Source of the DNA: Candidatus Nitrosopumilus sp.
GTDB lineage: Archaea; Thermoproteota; Nitrososphaeria; Nitrososphaerales; Nitrosopumilaceae
Direction: 5' to 3'
Assembly: GCA_029863275.1 (NCBI GenBank)
Contig: JAOTVS010000017.1
Coordinates: 1 to 33,275, forward strand
Length of the DNA stretch: 33,275 bases
Shown here: positions 7,080 to 29,343 of the stretch, piece by piece
Layout: every line of letters begins with the position of its first letter
Numbering within the stretch: position 1 is the stretch's first letter
Translations under genes and position numbers: made by a program
Notes under the pieces: generated by a model
What the model was told of the DNA's origin: nothing
The model's input: only the letters and a program-made list of their open reading frames with translations
The model's database searches: none

Positions 7080-7631
7080 ATGTTTAAAATGAAAATTGCT
7101 TTAGATGTTGATGGAGTAATAGCTGATGTTATTGAATCTTGGATAAATTATAGCAATCAAAAAAGAACTCTGATTTCCAAAGAGGAAATTACAAGTTGGG
7201 ATTTTTGGAAAAAATTTAAAATTAACAGATATGATTTTTACAAAGAACTAGCAATGTGTTGGAAAAATTGGAATGTTCTTCCTCCTATGGAAAATAACTT
7301 ATCTGAAATTACTCAAAGTTTATCAGAATTTGGTCAAGTAGATATAGTTACAGCTAGGGAATTATCAACTGATATTTTTGTAAAGAATTGGCTTGAACTT
7401 CATGATGTGGTTTATGAAAATTATATTTCTGTAATAGATGGAACACTGAAGGCGAATTTGGATTACGATCTTTTCATTGATGATTCTCCATTAAACATCG
7501 AAAAATTCATTGAAAATAAAAAAAATTTCTTCCTCTATTCTCAACCATGGAATAGAAATATTTCTATTTTAAAAGGCAAAAGAATTCATTCACTTTTGGA
7601 TGCTGTTTCTTACTTAAAATCAAAAAATTAA
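7080..7631 (+). CDS. HAD-superfamily hydrolase, 5'(3')-deoxyribonucleotidase-like
   Basis: This 183-residue protein carries the HAD catalytic signature DVDGVIADV near the N-terminus (nucleophile and acid/base Asp in DxDG). It also has a second motif VTARE and a C-terminal DDSPLNIEKF acidic motif. The spacing and the short helical cap resemble the NT5C family, which dephosphorylates deoxyribonucleoside monophosphates; the precise substrate is inferred. ATG 7089 is an alternative start that removes three residues. The start follows the dnaJ stop by three bases, so it is likely in the same transcript. The stop codon overlaps that of the convergent small gene. Confidence 0.7.
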   Translation: MFKMKIALDVDGVIADVIESWINYSNQKRTLISKEEITSWDFWKKFKINRYDFYKELAMCWKNWNVLPPMENNLSEITQSLSEFGQVDIVTARELSTDIFVKNWLELHDVVYENYISVIDGTLKANLDYDLFIDDSPLNIEKFIENKKNFFLYSQPWNRNISILKGKRIHSLLDAVSYLKSKN

Positions 7632-21065: not shown

Positions 21066-21089
21066 TTCCACACGGGGGCTAGTGTGAAA
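21066..21089. promoter_or_regulatory. Inverted repeat between the TrmB-like and radical SAM genes (possible operator)
   Basis: TTCCACAC (21066-21073) and GTGTGAAA (21082-21089) form an interrupted dyad with one mismatch around an 8-base GC-rich centre. It ends four bases before the TATA box ATTATATAC (21093-21101) of the radical SAM gene, where a bound regulator would block TBP/TFB. Confidence 0.45.
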
Positions 21090-21092
21090 TGG

Positions 21093-21101
21093 ATTATATA
21101 C
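21093..21101 (+). promoter_or_regulatory. TATA box of the radical SAM gene
   Basis: ATTATATAC is centred about 31 nt before the ATG at 21128. The upstream in-frame ATG at 21089 lies before the box, so it cannot be the start of a transcript made from this promoter. Confidence 0.6.
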
Positions 21102-21127
21102 TATTTCAGAAGGTTTTCAGTTATACA

Positions 21128-22792
21128 ATGGCTTTAATTCAGATTTCCAATCAATCAACAAAAAATCTAGGCAAGAAATCTACAATCCGATTCACACAAA
21201 GTATTTGTCCTGATTGCAATATGATTTTGGATGCTGAGGTTTTTGAAAGAGATGATAAAGTCTTCATGTCAAAAATTTGTCCCACTCACGGAGAATGTGA
21301 GGAATTATACTTTGGTTCTTATCAAATGTACAAAAAATTCAGTACATACTGGGTAGACGGAAAAGGCGCTCATGCTCCAAATGTTATGATTGACAAATGT
21401 TCTTGTCCAAATAACTGTGGTCTATGTTCAAATCACTTATCTCACAGTGGATTGGCAAACATGATTGTTACTAACAGATGTGATTTAACGTGTTGGTATT
21501 GTTTCTTTTATGTTAAGAAAGGTCTTGAGGGAGCTTACATGTATGAACCAAATCATGAACAAGTTAGAGGAATGATGAAGACCCTAAAGGCTGAAAGACC
21601 AATTCCTGGAAACTCTATGCAAATTACTGGTGGCGAACCCATGCTAAGAGAAGACATTACTGATCTTATCAAAATAATGAAAGAAGAAGGAGTAGATCAC
21701 ATTCAAATGAATACAAATGGTATTAGACATGCCATGGATCCTGAAGCAGCAAGAGAAGTAAGACTTGCAGGATGTAATAATTTGTATCTTAGTTTTGATG
21801 GTGTAACTGCTAGAACAAATCCTAAAAATCACTGGGAAATTCCTTATGCCCTTGATAGCTGTAGAAAAACTGGGACCACTGTTGTATTTGTTCCAACAGT
21901 AATCAAATCCATCAACGATCATGAATTAGGTGGTATTATTAGATATGCTCAAAAGAATATGGATGTAGTTCATGCTGTTAATTTTCAGCCAGTTTCCTTA
22001 ACCGGAAGAATGGGAAAATCTGAACGTGAAAAATACAGAATTACCGTTCCTGATTGTATCCAAAGAATTGAAGAGCAAACAAACGGTGAGGTAACAGTTG
22101 ATGATTGGTTCCCAGTACCAAGTTGTATGCCACTAACAAATGTAATAGAAGCATTTTCAAGTAAACCAAAATATGAACTATCCATACACTTTGCTTGTGG
22201 TGCAGGAACTTACATCTTTGAGGATGAAGATACAAAGAAATTTGTTCCATTAACCAAATTCTGTGATATTCAAGGAATGCTAGAATTATTTGAAGACAAA
22301 GCCGAAGAAATTCGCTCAGGTAAAAACAAATACTTTACAATGCTTGAAGTTGTCAGGAAACTAAAGGGTTTTGTAGATACAAAGAAACAACCTGCAGGAC
22401 TAGACTTGGCAAAGATGTTTGGAAATATCTTGATGAAACGATCATTTGATTCAATTGGTTCATGGCATGTCAAAGGATTATTCTTAGGTATGATGCACTT
22501 TCAAGACAAATACAATGAAGATCTTGAAAGATTACAAAGATGTGATATTCACTATGTAACACCTGATCTTAGAATTATTCCATTTTGCGCTTTCAATGTA
22601 ATTCCAGAATGGTATAGAGATAGAATTCAAAAGAAATATTCCATTACTGTAGAAGAATGGGAAGAAAGAGAAGGTGTCAAACTTGAAGATGGCCTTTACA
22701 GAGGTCTTATGAGACGTGGAGCAGGTGATGAACTTGCTGCTGGTTGTGCTAAGAGTCAAATGTTCCATGACGCAGCACAAGCTACTATGTAG
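21128..22792 (+). CDS. tes: Radical SAM protein of the Tes/MJ0619 type, probable tetraether lipid synthase
   Basis: The protein is 554 residues from ATG 21128. An N-terminal cysteine-rich region (CPDC, CPTHGE, CSCPNNCGLC) precedes the radical SAM motif CDLTCWYC (Cys 118, 122, 125). Next come 'QITGGEPMLREDI', the usual SAM-binding GGE motif, and a long C-terminal region with further cysteines. This layout and the 'CPxC...CPxHGE...CGLCxNH' pattern match my memory of the Tes/MJ0619 family, whose characterised member joins two archaeol lipids into tetraethers. The producing lineage is known for GDGT membranes, so the role fits, but the exact activity is inferred. It is divergent from a TrmB-like regulator. 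A TATA box lies about 31 nt upstream; the longer frame from 21089 would include it. Confidence 0.75.
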   Translation: MALIQISNQSTKNLGKKSTIRFTQSICPDCNMILDAEVFERDDKVFMSKICPTHGECEELYFGSYQMYKKFSTYWVDGKGAHAPNVMIDKCSCPNNCGLCSNHLSHSGLANMIVTNRCDLTCWYCFFYVKKGLEGAYMYEPNHEQVRGMMKTLKAERPIPGNSMQITGGEPMLREDITDLIKIMKEEGVDHIQMNTNGIRHAMDPEAAREVRLAGCNNLYLSFDGVTARTNPKNHWEIPYALDSCRKTGTTVVFVPTVIKSINDHELGGIIRYAQKNMDVVHAVNFQPVSLTGRMGKSEREKYRITVPDCIQRIEEQTNGEVTVDDWFPVPSCMPLTNVIEAFSSKPKYELSIHFACGAGTYIFEDEDTKKFVPLTKFCDIQGMLELFEDKAEEIRSGKNKYFTMLEVVRKLKGFVDTKKQPAGLDLAKMFGNILMKRSFDSIGSWHVKGLFLGMMHFQDKYNEDLERLQRCDIHYVTPDLRIIPFCAFNVIPEWYRDRIQKKYSITVEEWEEREGVKLEDGLYRGLMRRGAGDELAAGCAKSQMFHDAAQATM

Positions 22793-25000: not shown

Positions 25001-25021
25001 AAAGAATGGATGACACAATTG

Positions 25022-25606
25022 ATGTTCACTGGAATAGTTGAAGGTATTGGAAAAGTAAAAAAGATATCCAAAGCTACCAAAAACAGAAGTGCAATACACA
25101 TGACAGTAGATTTAGGAAAACATGGAAAAGGTTTGAAGACAGGACAAAGTGTTGCCTTGAATGGAGTTTGTTTGACTGTTACAAAATTATCAAAAACTGA
25201 ATGTAGTTTTGAGATGATTGATGAAACTACAAAAAAAACTGATTTAGGAAATCTTAAACCAGGGGGAATAGTAAATATTGAAAGAAGTTTAAAAGCAGGG
25301 GATCGATTAGAGGGACATTTTGTTTTGGGTCATGTAGATGGAGTAGGTATAATAAAAAAAATACTAAAAAAACCCAAAGAAGTTCAAATTTGGTTTGAAG
25401 TCCCTAAAATTTTATCAAAGTATATTGTAAAAAAAGGTTCAATTGCTATGGATGGAATTAGTTTAACAGTTGTTGATATAAAAAACAATCTAGCCTCCGT
25501 GTGTTTAATACCACACACAATAGAGGTTACCAACTTTAAAACAAAAAAAATTGGAGATAAAGTTAATATTGAAACTGACATTCTCGGGAAGTACATTTTA
25601 AAATAA
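25022..25606 (+). CDS. ribE: Riboflavin synthase, bacterial two-domain type
   Basis: This enzyme dismutates two molecules of 6,7-dimethyl-8-ribityllumazine to riboflavin. From ATG 25022 it is 194 residues, starting MFTGIVEGIG as in most family members. Two tandem lumazine-binding domains are visible: GQSVALNGVCLTV in the first, and GHFVLGHVDGVG with KGSIAMDGISLTVV in the second. Many archaea use an unrelated synthase related to lumazine synthase, so this bacterial-type enzyme is notable. ATG 25010 is an alternative start four residues upstream. It begins the riboflavin cluster but has its own promoter, and the ribB promoter follows it. Confidence 0.95.
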   Translation: MFTGIVEGIGKVKKISKATKNRSAIHMTVDLGKHGKGLKTGQSVALNGVCLTVTKLSKTECSFEMIDETTKKTDLGNLKPGGIVNIERSLKAGDRLEGHFVLGHVDGVGIIKKILKKPKEVQIWFEVPKILSKYIVKKGSIAMDGISLTVVDIKNNLASVCLIPHTIEVTNFKTKKIGDKVNIETDILGKYILK

Positions 25607-25685: not shown

Positions 25686-26348
25686 ATGTCCCTAGAATCA
25701 GGTCTTCAGTCATTAAAAAGAGGTGAATTTATTTTGTTATTTGATTCAGCAGGAAGAGAAAATGAAATTGATATGGTGGTGGCAGCCGAATATGTAACTC
25801 CTGAACATGTTGCAAGAATGCGTCAACATGCAGGTGGTCTTTTGTGTCTTGCAATAGATAATGAATTTGGAAATTCATTAGGTCTTCGTTACATGCATGA
25901 TATTTTAGCCGAATCATCAACTGATAAAGAAATGATAATGGGTCTTGCCCCATATGGTGATCGACCAACTTTTTCAATTTCAATTAATCATTATCAAACT
26001 TACACTGGCATCACGGATAAAGACCGTTCATTGACAATTTCAGAAATGGCCAAAATCTTCAATATTGAAAACAGGAAAAAAAAATTTGTATCTTCGTTTA
26101 AAACCCCTGGTCATGTTCCACTTTTGCTTGCATCTAAAGGTCTATTGGAAAATCGACAAGGACATACTGAAATGTCAATCTATTTGGCTAAACTTGCAGA
26201 CCTGACACCAGTAACCGCAATATGCGAAATGATGGATGCTGAAACTTATACTGCATTATCAGTAGAGAAAGCAGAAAAATATGCAAAACAAAATTGTATT
26301 CCATTAATTGATGGAAAAGAACTATTAGAATATTCCAAGGTACAATAG
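25686..26348 (+). CDS. ribB: 3,4-dihydroxy-2-butanone 4-phosphate synthase
   Basis: RibB converts ribulose 5-phosphate into the four-carbon substrate of lumazine synthase. The protein is 220 residues with no GTP cyclohydrolase II domain attached. Motifs include FDSAGRENEIDMVVAAEY (the DxxxRENE metal/acid motif), 'MRQHAGGLLCLAI', 'DRSLTI' and the GHVPLL segment near residue 142. The histidine in 'RQGHTEMS' is the second metal ligand. ribH starts two bases after its stop, so the operon is tight. Confidence 0.96.
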   Translation: MSLESGLQSLKRGEFILLFDSAGRENEIDMVVAAEYVTPEHVARMRQHAGGLLCLAIDNEFGNSLGLRYMHDILAESSTDKEMIMGLAPYGDRPTFSISINHYQTYTGITDKDRSLTISEMAKIFNIENRKKKFVSSFKTPGHVPLLLASKGLLENRQGHTEMSIYLAKLADLTPVTAICEMMDAETYTALSVEKAEKYAKQNCIPLIDGKELLEYSKVQ

Positions 26349-26350
26349 TT

Positions 26351-26767
26351 ATGAAAATTGCAGTAGTAGTCTCAGAATTTAATCAAGAGATAACATCTAG
26401 AATGCTTTTGGTGGTCCAAGAAAAAGCAAAATTATTGAATTTGAAAATAACCTATATTTGTAAAGTTCCCGGGAGCTACGATATGCCTATCATTGTTGAT
26501 GCTTTATTACAAAAGAAAAATGTAGATGGAGTAGTTACCTTGGGTGCGATAATAAAAGGACAAACCAAACATGATGAAGTAATTGCTCATTCTGCTGCAA
26601 ACGGGCTAACCCAATTATCTCTGAAATATAAAAAACCAGTTTCCTTAGGAATCACTGGACCTGGTATGCAAGAAAGACAAGCTTTTGCGCGAATAAGGCC
26701 AGTAGCTGAGCGAGCAGTAGAAGCAATAGTAAAAATCAGCAACGAACTTGAAAGGATTAAAGAATGA
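26351..26767 (+). CDS. ribH: 6,7-dimethyl-8-ribityllumazine synthase
   Basis: RibH condenses the pyrimidine diamine with 3,4-dihydroxy-2-butanone 4-phosphate. The protein is 138 residues, normal for archaeal lumazine synthase. The substrate motif VPGSYDMP, the phosphate-binding GAIIKGQTKHDE with the catalytic His region, and 'GITGPGM' are all present. Its 3' end overlaps the arfA start by four bases, showing translational coupling. Confidence 0.96.
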   Translation: MKIAVVVSEFNQEITSRMLLVVQEKAKLLNLKITYICKVPGSYDMPIIVDALLQKKNVDGVVTLGAIIKGQTKHDEVIAHSAANGLTQLSLKYKKPVSLGITGPGMQERQAFARIRPVAERAVEAIVKISNELERIKE

Positions 26768-27510
26768 TTCAAGTTAGCATTTTAAAAATAAATGATTACG
26801 GTCCTTGGACCTTAACTCTTGGAAGCGATAGAGAACATGAATTGCAGATACTCCAGGCATCACTTTACGAGAATCTGCAAAGGCAATTTTCAGAAAAAAA
26901 CTGCTTAGTTTTTTTAAATAGATCTGATGAGTTTTTCGTTATCTCGAACAATTTGAGTCTAGAGGATCATATTGAAGTTCAAAAAAATCTTGAAAAAAAA
27001 TTTGAAATCAGACTTTCAATTTCGATAGGTTTTGCAGATTCCCCGTTTGAGGCAAATAAAAAAGCATACGAAGGAAAGAAGAATAAAATATCTCTAAACG
27101 TAGATCATAATATTTTTGGGTTTGTGGATAATTCCTCTCAAAAAGAAGTCACTATCATGCATTTTGATGTGGATAATCTTTCCTCTAAAAGAAAAACATT
27201 CTCTCCTTTCGAAATCTCTTCAATTATTTTTAGCTTATATTCCAAAATGATAAAATTTTTTATAGAAAAAAATTCACTTTCTTTTTTTATGGGTGGTGAT
27301 AATTTTATGGTTGTTGCAAGCATTAATGGAAAAAAAAATGCAAAGGAGTTCATTGATTTAATCAAAAAGGATGATGGAATTCTTTTGAATTGTGGAATAG
27401 GTACTGGCAAAACTTCTAGAGAGGCTGCCAGTCTTGCAACCAAATCTTTGGATACAATTAGAGAAATCCGAGATTCAGGAAAGGAAAAACCTGAAGTTTT
27501 TGAAATATAA
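26764..27510 (+). CDS. arfA: GTP cyclohydrolase III
   Basis: ArfA opens GTP to the formamidopyrimidine nucleotide that starts archaeal riboflavin and F420 synthesis. The protein is 248 residues. It begins with the typical 'VSILKINDYGPWTLTLGSDRE' pattern. It carries two related halves of about 120 residues, and the second includes FDVDNLS and the palm-like MGGDNFMVVAS (GGDN). The length and fold pattern are those of the GTP cyclohydrolase III family. The start overlaps ribH by four bases, and the next gene starts on the last base of its stop codon (TAATG). Confidence 0.95.
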   Translation: MIQVSILKINDYGPWTLTLGSDREHELQILQASLYENLQRQFSEKNCLVFLNRSDEFFVISNNLSLEDHIEVQKNLEKKFEIRLSISIGFADSPFEANKKAYEGKKNKISLNVDHNIFGFVDNSSQKEVTIMHFDVDNLSSKRKTFSPFEISSIIFSLYSKMIKFFIEKNSLSFFMGGDNFMVVASINGKKNAKEFIDLIKKDDGILLNCGIGTGKTSREAASLATKSLDTIREIRDSGKEKPEVFEI

Positions 27511-28700
27511 TGTTAATTAAAAATGTAAGTACCTTACTTGGAAAAGAGCTAGATTTTGTTTCAAATACCAATGTCAAAATCCAGGATGGCCGATTTAAGA
27601 GAATTCAACCTAATATTGGTCCAAGCGCAAAAGAAGAATCAATTGATGCAGATGGATTATTGTTAATTCCAGGATTTGTTAATTGTCATACCCATGTTGG
27701 TGATTCTATTGCAAAAGATATTACATTAAACAGTTCGGTAGATAATCGAATTCATCCAGTATCTGGTATAAAATCAAAAATACTAAAGGAAACAGATCCA
27801 AAACATCTCAAAATTTTTATGAAAAATTCTTGCCAATCAATGCTCAATAAAGGCATTACAACATTTGTAGATTTTAGAGAAGGAGGATTGGAAGGAATTT
27901 TAATGTTAAAGGAGGTTTTAACAAATGTTCCTATACGTTCAATAATTCTTGGAAGATTAGAATTCTATCAAAATTTTGATGAAATTAAAAAAAATACTTC
28001 ATTTCCAAAAAATAAAATTGAAGAATTAACAAAATTACTCAAAAAATGTGATGGTCTTGGAATTAGTGGAGCAAATGAAAATAGTCAATCAGTACTGAAT
28101 TATTATTCAAAGACATCAAAAATAAGAGCAATTCATTCCTCAGAAACAAAACAGAGCATTTCTACATCAAAAAAAATAACTGGTAAATCCGAAACCATAC
28201 GAGCCCTAAATGCTAAACCTCATTTTATGGTGCATATGACGCACGCATCAAAGGGAGATCTATTTGTCACTGCTAAAAAAACTAGAGGCATTGTAATATG
28301 TCCCCGTGCAAATGCTTCACTTGCAGAAGGAATTCCTAACATTGAATTAATGAAAAAAACGGGATGTACAATTGCATTGGGAACAGATAATGTTATGATA
28401 AATTCTCCTGACATGTTTCGAGAAATGGATTATTTGTGGAAAGTTTCTATGGGAATTCATAAAAAAAGAGTTAGTCCGAAAGAAATTCTAAAAATGGCTA
28501 CTGTAAATGGTGGAAAAATTTTAAAAAAAGAAATAGGTATAATTGAAACTGGAAAATTTGCAGATGGAATATTTATCAATAAACATTCTCTTGATTTAGA
28601 TCCAATGCACAATGTTTATGCATCAATTGTTCATCGAGCATCAGAATCTAATATTAGGGCAGTAATGATTGGAGGTAAAATAGTCCATGGAAAAATTTAA
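27510..28700 (+). CDS. Amidohydrolase-superfamily protein, candidate riboflavin-pathway deaminase
   Basis: This 396-residue protein is of the TrzA/MtaD-like amidohydrolase type. The N-terminal beta-sandwich segment is followed by IPGFVNCHTHVGD, giving HxH (His 60, His 62). Further candidate metal or catalytic residues are His 209 and Glu 212 in HSSE, His 242 or 245 in VHMTHAS, and Asp 293 in LGTDN. HxxE plus Asp is the pattern of metal-dependent nucleobase deaminases. It is enclosed between arfA (stop/start overlap TAATG) and arfC (start inside this gene). This makes an enzyme of riboflavin synthesis, most simply the diaminopyrimidine deaminase, likely. Formamide hydrolysis is the main alternative. 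The reaction is inferred, not shown. Confidence 0.82.
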   Translation: MLIKNVSTLLGKELDFVSNTNVKIQDGRFKRIQPNIGPSAKEESIDADGLLLIPGFVNCHTHVGDSIAKDITLNSSVDNRIHPVSGIKSKILKETDPKHLKIFMKNSCQSMLNKGITTFVDFREGGLEGILMLKEVLTNVPIRSIILGRLEFYQNFDEIKKNTSFPKNKIEELTKLLKKCDGLGISGANENSQSVLNYYSKTSKIRAIHSSETKQSISTSKKITGKSETIRALNAKPHFMVHMTHASKGDLFVTAKKTRGIVICPRANASLAEGIPNIELMKKTGCTIALGTDNVMINSPDMFREMDYLWKVSMGIHKKRVSPKEILKMATVNGGKILKKEIGIIETGKFADGIFINKHSLDLDPMHNVYASIVHRASESNIRAVMIGGKIVHGKI

Positions 28701-29343
28701 TTCAAAAATAATTCTAAGTGCAGCAATATCAATAGATGGAAAAATAGCAACTGTAACTGGTGAGTCTAAATTATCTTCTAAGCAAGATCTAATTAGACTT
28801 CATAAATTACGGTCACAAGTAGATGCAATTCTAGTTGGGAGAAATACTGTTAACATTGATGATCCTTTACTCACCGTAAGATACTCAAAGGGAAAAAACC
28901 CTATTAGAATAATTTTAGACTCTGGCGGAACTATTTCAGAAAGATCAAAAATTTTGCAGACAAGTCATAAAATAAAAACAATTATTGTTGTCTCTAAAAA
29001 AATATCAAACAAAAATCTACAAAAATTAAAAAATTTTCCTATAGAGATAATAACGATTGGTGAAAAGAAGATCAACGTTAATTTATTAATGAATATTCTT
29101 AGAAAAAAAAAAATTAAAACTGTACTTTTAGAAGGAGGTGGTACAATAAACTGGGAATTTATAAAAAATAATTTAGTTGATGAATATTTTATTACCCTTA
29201 CACCGTTCATTCTAGGGGGGAAAAATTCAATTTCTTTGGTTCAAGGTGAAGGATTTGGCAAAATTTCAAAATCCACAAAACTTCAATTAGTTAGAACAAA
29301 GAGGCTTGGAAATGAGATTGTTTTGAATTATGTCAAACTCTAA
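28687..29343 (+). CDS. arfC: 2,5-diamino-6-ribosylamino-pyrimidinone 5'-phosphate reductase (RibD C-terminal type)
   Basis: This NAD(P)H-dependent reductase acts on the ribose side chain in riboflavin synthesis. The protein is 218 residues and forms only the dihydrofolate-reductase-like domain, without the deaminase domain fused in bacterial RibD. 'SAAISIDGKIATVTGES', 'LRSQVDAILVGRNTVNIDDP', 'IRIILDSGG' and LLEGGGTINWEFI are the family motifs. The gene starts 14 bases before the amidohydrolase stop, with GGAGGT at 28671-28676 as Shine-Dalgarno. It is the last gene of the cluster. Confidence 0.94.
   Translation: MEKFNSKIILSAAISIDGKIATVTGESKLSSKQDLIRLHKLRSQVDAILVGRNTVNIDDPLLTVRYSKGKNPIRIILDSGGTISERSKILQTSHKIKTIIVVSKKISNKNLQKLKNFPIEIITIGEKKINVNLLMNILRKKKIKTVLLEGGGTINWEFIKNNLVDEYFITLTPFILGGKNSISLVQGEGFGKISKSTKLQLVRTKRLGNEIVLNYVKL

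Follow-up and report, generated by a model that had tools for sequence, protein, structure and literature searches.

In bacteria and fungi, the ring deamination of riboflavin synthesis is carried out by RibD/Rib2, enzymes of the cytidine-deaminase (CDA) fold, and fungal Rib2 also acts after reduction. Another set of enzymes, the isocytosine and guanine deaminases, converts a ring 2-amino group to oxygen by C2-NH2 hydrolysis. For archaea, PMC8305020 (2021) records three riboflavin gaps in Haloferax, among them the phosphatase (EC 3.1.3.104), and cites predictions by Rodionova et al. 2017 for two of the gaps: HVO_1235 (ArfB) and HVO_2483/MJ0699, the latter placed in its table after arfC and before the gap of the phosphatase, which is the position of the deaminase. 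In Haloferax, deletion of arfA is reported to cause riboflavin auxotrophy. By elimination and from the order of the table in PMC8305020, HVO_2483/MJ0699 were apparently proposed as the deaminase in 2017, the word itself being absent from the main text of PMC8305020; a deaminase role for the family considered below is thus apparently not a new idea. Our literature search, in which subscription journals were mostly outside coverage, returned neither an ArfD nor an experimental report on the archaeal deaminase, and in the literature found the riboflavin/F420 deaminase of archaea is a pathway gap without an experimentally assigned enzyme.

We consider here a locus in which a COG0402-type amidohydrolase gene, referred to as AHS, lies among riboflavin genes. 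The DNA analysed (hereafter the window) is a 33,275-nt stretch, positions 1-33,275 of the forward strand of contig JAOTVS010000017.1 (GCA_029863275.1), from Candidatus Nitrosopumilus sp., an ammonia-oxidising archaeon. Seven consecutive co-directional genes, all on the forward strand, run from an STT3/AglB-like gene through ribE (bacterial-type riboflavin synthase with two lumazine-binding domains; 25010..25606; NF006767, 222.9 bits), ribB (DHBP synthase; 25686..26348; TIGR00506, 211.7 bits) and ribH (lumazine synthase; 26351..26767; TIGR00114, 131.6 bits), each of these three above its cut-off, to arfA (GTP cyclohydrolase III, GCH_III; 26764..27510; PF05165, 6.5e-47), AHS (27510..28700, 396 aa from an ATG start) and arfC (28687..29343), the last encoding a RibD_C reductase without a deaminase domain (TIGR01508, 195 bits against a cut-off of 186; PF01872, 4e-51; no PF00383). 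The TAA stop of arfA (27508-27510) overlaps the AHS ATG at 27510 by one base, and the start of arfC (28687) lies 14 bases inside the 3' part of AHS, so that AHS is translationally coupled to both neighbors. The family matches and coordinates thereby confirm the placement given in a preliminary description of this DNA, which had AHS between arfA and arfC with an overlap at either end. Because the order ribB-ribH-arfA-AHS-arfC is kept in 24 of 24 sampled genomes of the Nitrosopumilaceae, a chance arrangement is excluded. From its setting and the distribution of its relatives, AHS is very probably the 2,5-diamino-6-ribitylamino-4(3H)-pyrimidinone 5'-phosphate deaminase.

Other features of the window touch on the same pathway or adjoin the cluster. 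The riboflavin synthase at 25010-25606 is of the bacterial/eukaryotic two-domain RibE type; most crenarchaeal genomes surveyed carry a second PF00885 protein (archaeal RibC type) in its place. A small gene at 7080-7631 encodes an NT5C-like 5'-nucleotidase (HAD-type), a kind of protein that may merit consideration for the riboflavin-pathway phosphatase (EC 3.1.3.104), and a radical SAM protein with an HMPTM zinc ribbon (PF23545) is encoded at 21089-22792, upstream of the aglB-like gene.

The AHS protein belongs to NF005552/PRK07213, scoring 327.3 bits against a curated cut-off of 294 over residues 1-387. NCBI names this family "chlorohydrolase," a name that is not supported by the gene context of AHS. 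Its Pfam matches are confined to PF01979 (1.4e-37) and PF07969, with PF00383, the cytidine deaminase fold of RibD/Rib2, absent from them. Scores fall well under the equivalog cut-offs for MTA/SAH deaminases (127 versus 617 bits for PRK08393, 107 versus 522 for PRK07228), and far under the NCBIfam cut-offs of guanine and other deaminase families as well.

The residues that the preliminary description had picked out as those of an amidohydrolase are all borne out: H60 and H62 in NCHTH, H209 and E212 in HSSE, H242 in VHMTH, and D293 and N294 in LGTDN. Across 156 aligned sequences, the metal and catalytic set H60, H62, H209, E212, H242 and D293 is invariant; it comprises the metal ligands H60 and H62 of the HxHxxD motif (27687..27704, forward strand, as for all codons given here), the third metal histidine H209 and catalytic glutamate E212 of the HxxE element HSSE (28134..28145), the active-site histidine H242 (28233..28235) and the metal aspartate D293 of TDN (292-294; 28383..28391). 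A further set of positions separates 120 rib-type sequences from 36 paralogues. The rib-type group is defined by D65 and by K88 (27771..27773), each found in 120/120 members and 0/36 paralogues; independent of this definition are E124 of DFRE (121-124; 27870..27881), present in 119 of the 120 and absent from the paralogues, R266 (117/120) and N294 (120/120 versus 0/36, the paralogues having Gly or Ser). HxHxxD, K88, E124 and TDN are common to archaeal AHS proteins whether or not their genes are linked to riboflavin genes, whereas the MTA/SAH-deaminase-like paralogues, including those of the same archaea, mostly have HxHxxM and TDG, with neither K88 nor E124. In a 64-row maximum-likelihood tree, a single branch (SH-aLRT 100) splits rib-type AHS from the paralogues, and the crenarchaeal AHS proteins form one supported group; because this tree comes from a quick search and contains several long branches, we do not rely on its finer branching order. 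Orthologue calls were made from residues and tree because paralogues score well by E-value, which failed as a test on its own (paralogues reach 2e-51 with the divergent profile, as in G111). The window AHS, which carries D65, K88, E124 and N294, shares its operon with arfC and ribH and falls in the rib-type clade, is an ordinary orthologue that does not differ from the rest of its family.

An AlphaFold2 model of AHS built from 57 orthologues (mean pLDDT 96) finds its best PDB fold matches among adenosine/MTA/SAH deaminases (4gbd, 1p1m, 4f0r), atrazine hydrolases, isocytosine deaminase (Vcz 7ww2, TMq 0.87) and guanine deaminases. The comparison with known deaminases suggested in the preliminary description has thus been made on the model, and the predicted fold is one shared with deaminases, those of isocytosine and guanine included. 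MTA/SAH/5'-deoxyadenosine deaminases (4gbd, 1p1m, DadD) are both the best fold matches and the nearest sequence relatives of AHS, but differ in having HxHxxM, in lacking K88 and E124, and in having TDG where AHS has TDN, with the SH-aLRT 100 branch lying between them. Vcz (7ww2/8is4) and the guanine deaminases (2uz9, 6ohb) have the same barrel fold as AHS (TMq 0.80-0.87), and their hydrolysis of the 2-amino group on a 2-amino-4-oxo-pyrimidine ring is chemically the nearest reaction to the one proposed, which by analogy would be the same chemistry; the likeness is one of fold and reaction, with sequence identity to AHS at 15-18% and substrates that are free bases rather than a ribityl-phosphate. 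RibD/Rib2 and AHS would act on the same pyrimidine intermediate of the pathway, but the cytidine-deaminase fold of RibD/Rib2 has no match in AHS, and AHS in place of those enzymes would be a non-homologous replacement.

We hold with high confidence that AHS is a mononuclear-metal amidohydrolase of the TRZ/ATZ, guanine-deaminase-like COG0402 group that deaminates the ArfC product and so fills the missing step of archaeal riboflavin synthesis. In the mechanism that we propose, the substrate of AHS would be the ArfC product, 2,5-diamino-6-ribitylamino-4(3H)-pyrimidinone 5'-phosphate, whose 2-amino group would be removed by hydrolysis with formation of 5-amino-6-ribitylaminouracil 5'-phosphate and release of ammonia. 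A single metal, Zn or Fe, bound by H60, H62, H209 and D293 would activate water, while E212 would protonate the ring nitrogen with assistance from H242 and D293; these are the catalytic roles described for such residues in guanine-deaminase-like enzymes. The archaea-specific D65, K88, E124, R149/R266 and N294 are predicted to set specificity, perhaps toward the 5-amino group and the ribityl-phosphate.

Linked AHS and riboflavin genes recur, in gene arrangements that differ, among Nitrososphaeria, Bathyarchaeota, Heimdallarchaeota, Aenigmatarchaeota, Altiarchaeales, Methanothrix, archaeon B26 (L062) and four or more crenarchaeal families, with identities of 20-38% in the distant lineages. The arrangements include ribH-arfA-AHS-arfC (Bathyarchaeota L037), AHS-arfC (Heimdallarchaeota L080, and also G018 and G102), ribH-ribB-AHS-arfC (Aenigmatarchaeota L082), AHS-ribB (Altiarchaeales L088) and a divergent arfC|AHS pair (Methanothrix L078). 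Among the crenarchaeal families we find arfC-AHS (f30), ribB-ribC-ribH-arfA-AHS (f18), arfC-arfA-ribB-ribC-ribH-AHS (f15) and AHS divergent from ribB-ribC-ribH-arfA (f3), where the label ribC denotes a second, weaker match to PF00885 or to the RibH profile. That the link has been re-formed repeatedly argues for function rather than for shared ancestry of one gene order. Orthologues consistently found away from riboflavin genes had been expected to count against a role in the pathway; such separation is seen in Halobacteria, Methanobacteriaceae, Sulfolobaceae and Thermoplasmata. ArfC is nonetheless encoded in all 12 AHS genomes tested across archaea, a set that includes Haloferax, Methanobacteriaceae and Thermoplasmata, and every sampled member of the Sulfolobaceae has it as well. 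The AHS proteins of Sulfolobaceae and of family f20 are very divergent (20-25% identity).

The preliminary description had also asked whether orthologues accompany arfA and arfC in genomes lacking a RibD-type deaminase. We searched 151 Thermoproteota genomes for AHS, ArfC, CDA-fold deaminases, lumazine synthase and ArfB, and found near-perfect co-occurrence of AHS with the pathway. AHS is present in 59 of the 60 genomes with a strong lumazine synthase (RibH) match, all 59 calls being verified by residues or, in the window's family, through the alignment together with gene order. Among the 91 lacking such a match, AHS was found in 3 (Fisher p ~4e-37, for genomes that are non-independent and uncorrected for phylogeny); at the family level, it occurs in 10 of 11 RibH-positive families. 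The sole RibH-positive genome without AHS (G060; 90% complete, 7% contaminated) also has no ArfC. In all three RibH-negative carriers (G018, G096 and G102), AHS stands beside arfC; F420 synthesis uses the same intermediate as the riboflavin pathway and may explain AHS and arfC without lumazine synthase there. Other AHS-profile matches in RibH-negative genomes, where inspected (a part of them), are paralogues.

Of the 62 AHS-bearing Thermoproteota, 61 have ArfC. In one complete genome of 2.4 Mb (G080; L144, L234, L235), AHS and lumazine synthase are present but TIGR01508 (ArfC) finds no match, although three genomes with its genus code do have one. As possible counter-examples we considered genomes with ArfC and no AHS, in families f2 (G075, G087, G123, G141), f33 (G108), f21 (G050, G124) and f20 (G048, G086); none has a lumazine synthase match, and so riboflavin synthesis is not completed by this route in them. 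The ArfC-like reductases of G087, G075, G123 and G141 (L132), which lack both lumazine synthase and AHS, are stand-alone genes that may serve F420, another pterin-like reduction, or reflect pathway loss. Beyond the Thermoproteota, 93 of 97 Methanobacteriota score above the AHS family cut-off, including 27 of 27 without any CDA-fold protein. A CDA-fold match (E<=1e-3) is absent from at least eight AHS-bearing Thermoproteota (G064, G070, G076, G082, G088, G102, G118 and G130), and likewise from the controls M. jannaschii and S. acidocaldarius.

Which other genes could take the steps in question was examined in the window's own genome, which is 1.76 Mb and 99% complete. The alternative first raised for AHS was the formamide hydrolase step of ArfB, that is, deformylation of the ArfA product, a reading suggested by its position directly after arfA and by the ability of amidohydrolases to cleave formamides. 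AHS has no PF02633 match, and NF033501 is not among its best 25 NCBIfam matches. Two proteins of the creatininase family are encoded in the genome, and for one of them the top NCBIfam match is ArfB; their ArfB scores, 68.9 and 45 bits, lie under the cut-off of 180, which leaves some room for AHS in that role. In nearly all sampled Sulfolobaceae (L118/G055 and others), however, the arfA-arfC-ribB cluster has an ArfB-like creatininase gene at ~1 kb from arfC while AHS lies elsewhere, M. jannaschii matches both the ArfB and the AHS families, and the fold neighbors of AHS are ring deaminases. We therefore disfavor the formamide hydrolase role and judge it very unlikely. The Sulfolobaceae creatininase is a good candidate for the crenarchaeal ArfB. 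With an ArfB candidate elsewhere in the genome, the steps left unfilled are those of the deaminase and the phosphatase.

Two further alternatives grant AHS a place beside the pathway without the ring deamination. In one, AHS would be a hydrolase with a repair or housekeeping role toward reactive intermediates of riboflavin synthesis, with deamination left to a promiscuous CDA-fold enzyme such as a ComEB/dCMP deaminase. A CDA-fold protein is indeed present in all Nitrosopumilaceae sampled and in the window genome, where our search for a RibD-type deaminase returned only that single ComEB/dCMP-deaminase-like gene, whose product could in principle be promiscuous toward the pathway intermediate. 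Yet a CDA-fold protein is missing altogether from many AHS genomes that make riboflavin, and G035 is the only AHS genome with a CDA-fold gene within a few kb of arfC, which makes this division of labor very unlikely. Slightly less probable still is that AHS is a DadD-like deaminase of MTA/SAH/5'-deoxyadenosine whose place in the operon is incidental. The superfamily and fold are common to both (4gbd, 1p1m, 4f0r), and the window genome yielded no close COG0402-type gene besides AHS. Against this stand the D65/K88/E124/N294 set in place of the HxHxxM/TDG signature, the presence of AHS together with a paralogue in several genomes (e.g., G064, G082 and G112), and a distribution of AHS that tracks RibH. 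Deamination of the ArfC product thus remains our preferred role for AHS, and no dedicated candidate for that step other than AHS was found in the window genome. The preliminary description's proposal of AHS as the missing deaminase after ArfC is supported, as a prediction, by rib linkage, co-occurrence, the absence of RibD/Rib2 from many genomes, the residue signature and the fold.

The link to the earlier prediction runs through Haloferax, whose AHS relative is 32% identical to the window protein. In Haloferax marinum, AHS and asd are 3.7 kb apart, separated by birA, and asd is HVO_2487 in Haloferax (PMC8305020); from this synteny HVO_2483 is very probably a member of the AHS family. The M. 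jannaschii control genome matches NF005552, and MJ0699 is probably a member too. The family has the same metal ligands and rib-type signature as the window protein. New here are the extent of the linkage, the test of co-occurrence with lumazine synthase, a set of signature residues that takes in the divergent crenarchaeal members, and the evidence against the ArfB reading. This comparative evidence makes the AHS family the clear candidate for the archaeal deaminase, with a signature that separates it from look-alike deaminases. More broadly, it seems likely that in nearly all archaea the ring deamination of riboflavin and F420 synthesis is carried out by metal amidohydrolases of the TIM-barrel fold that share one origin and are marked by HxHxxD/K88/E124/TDN, the divergent Sulfolobaceae and other crenarchaeal versions included. 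These would have replaced RibD/Rib2 entirely and in a few lineages would accompany arfC without lumazine synthase, possibly for F420 only.
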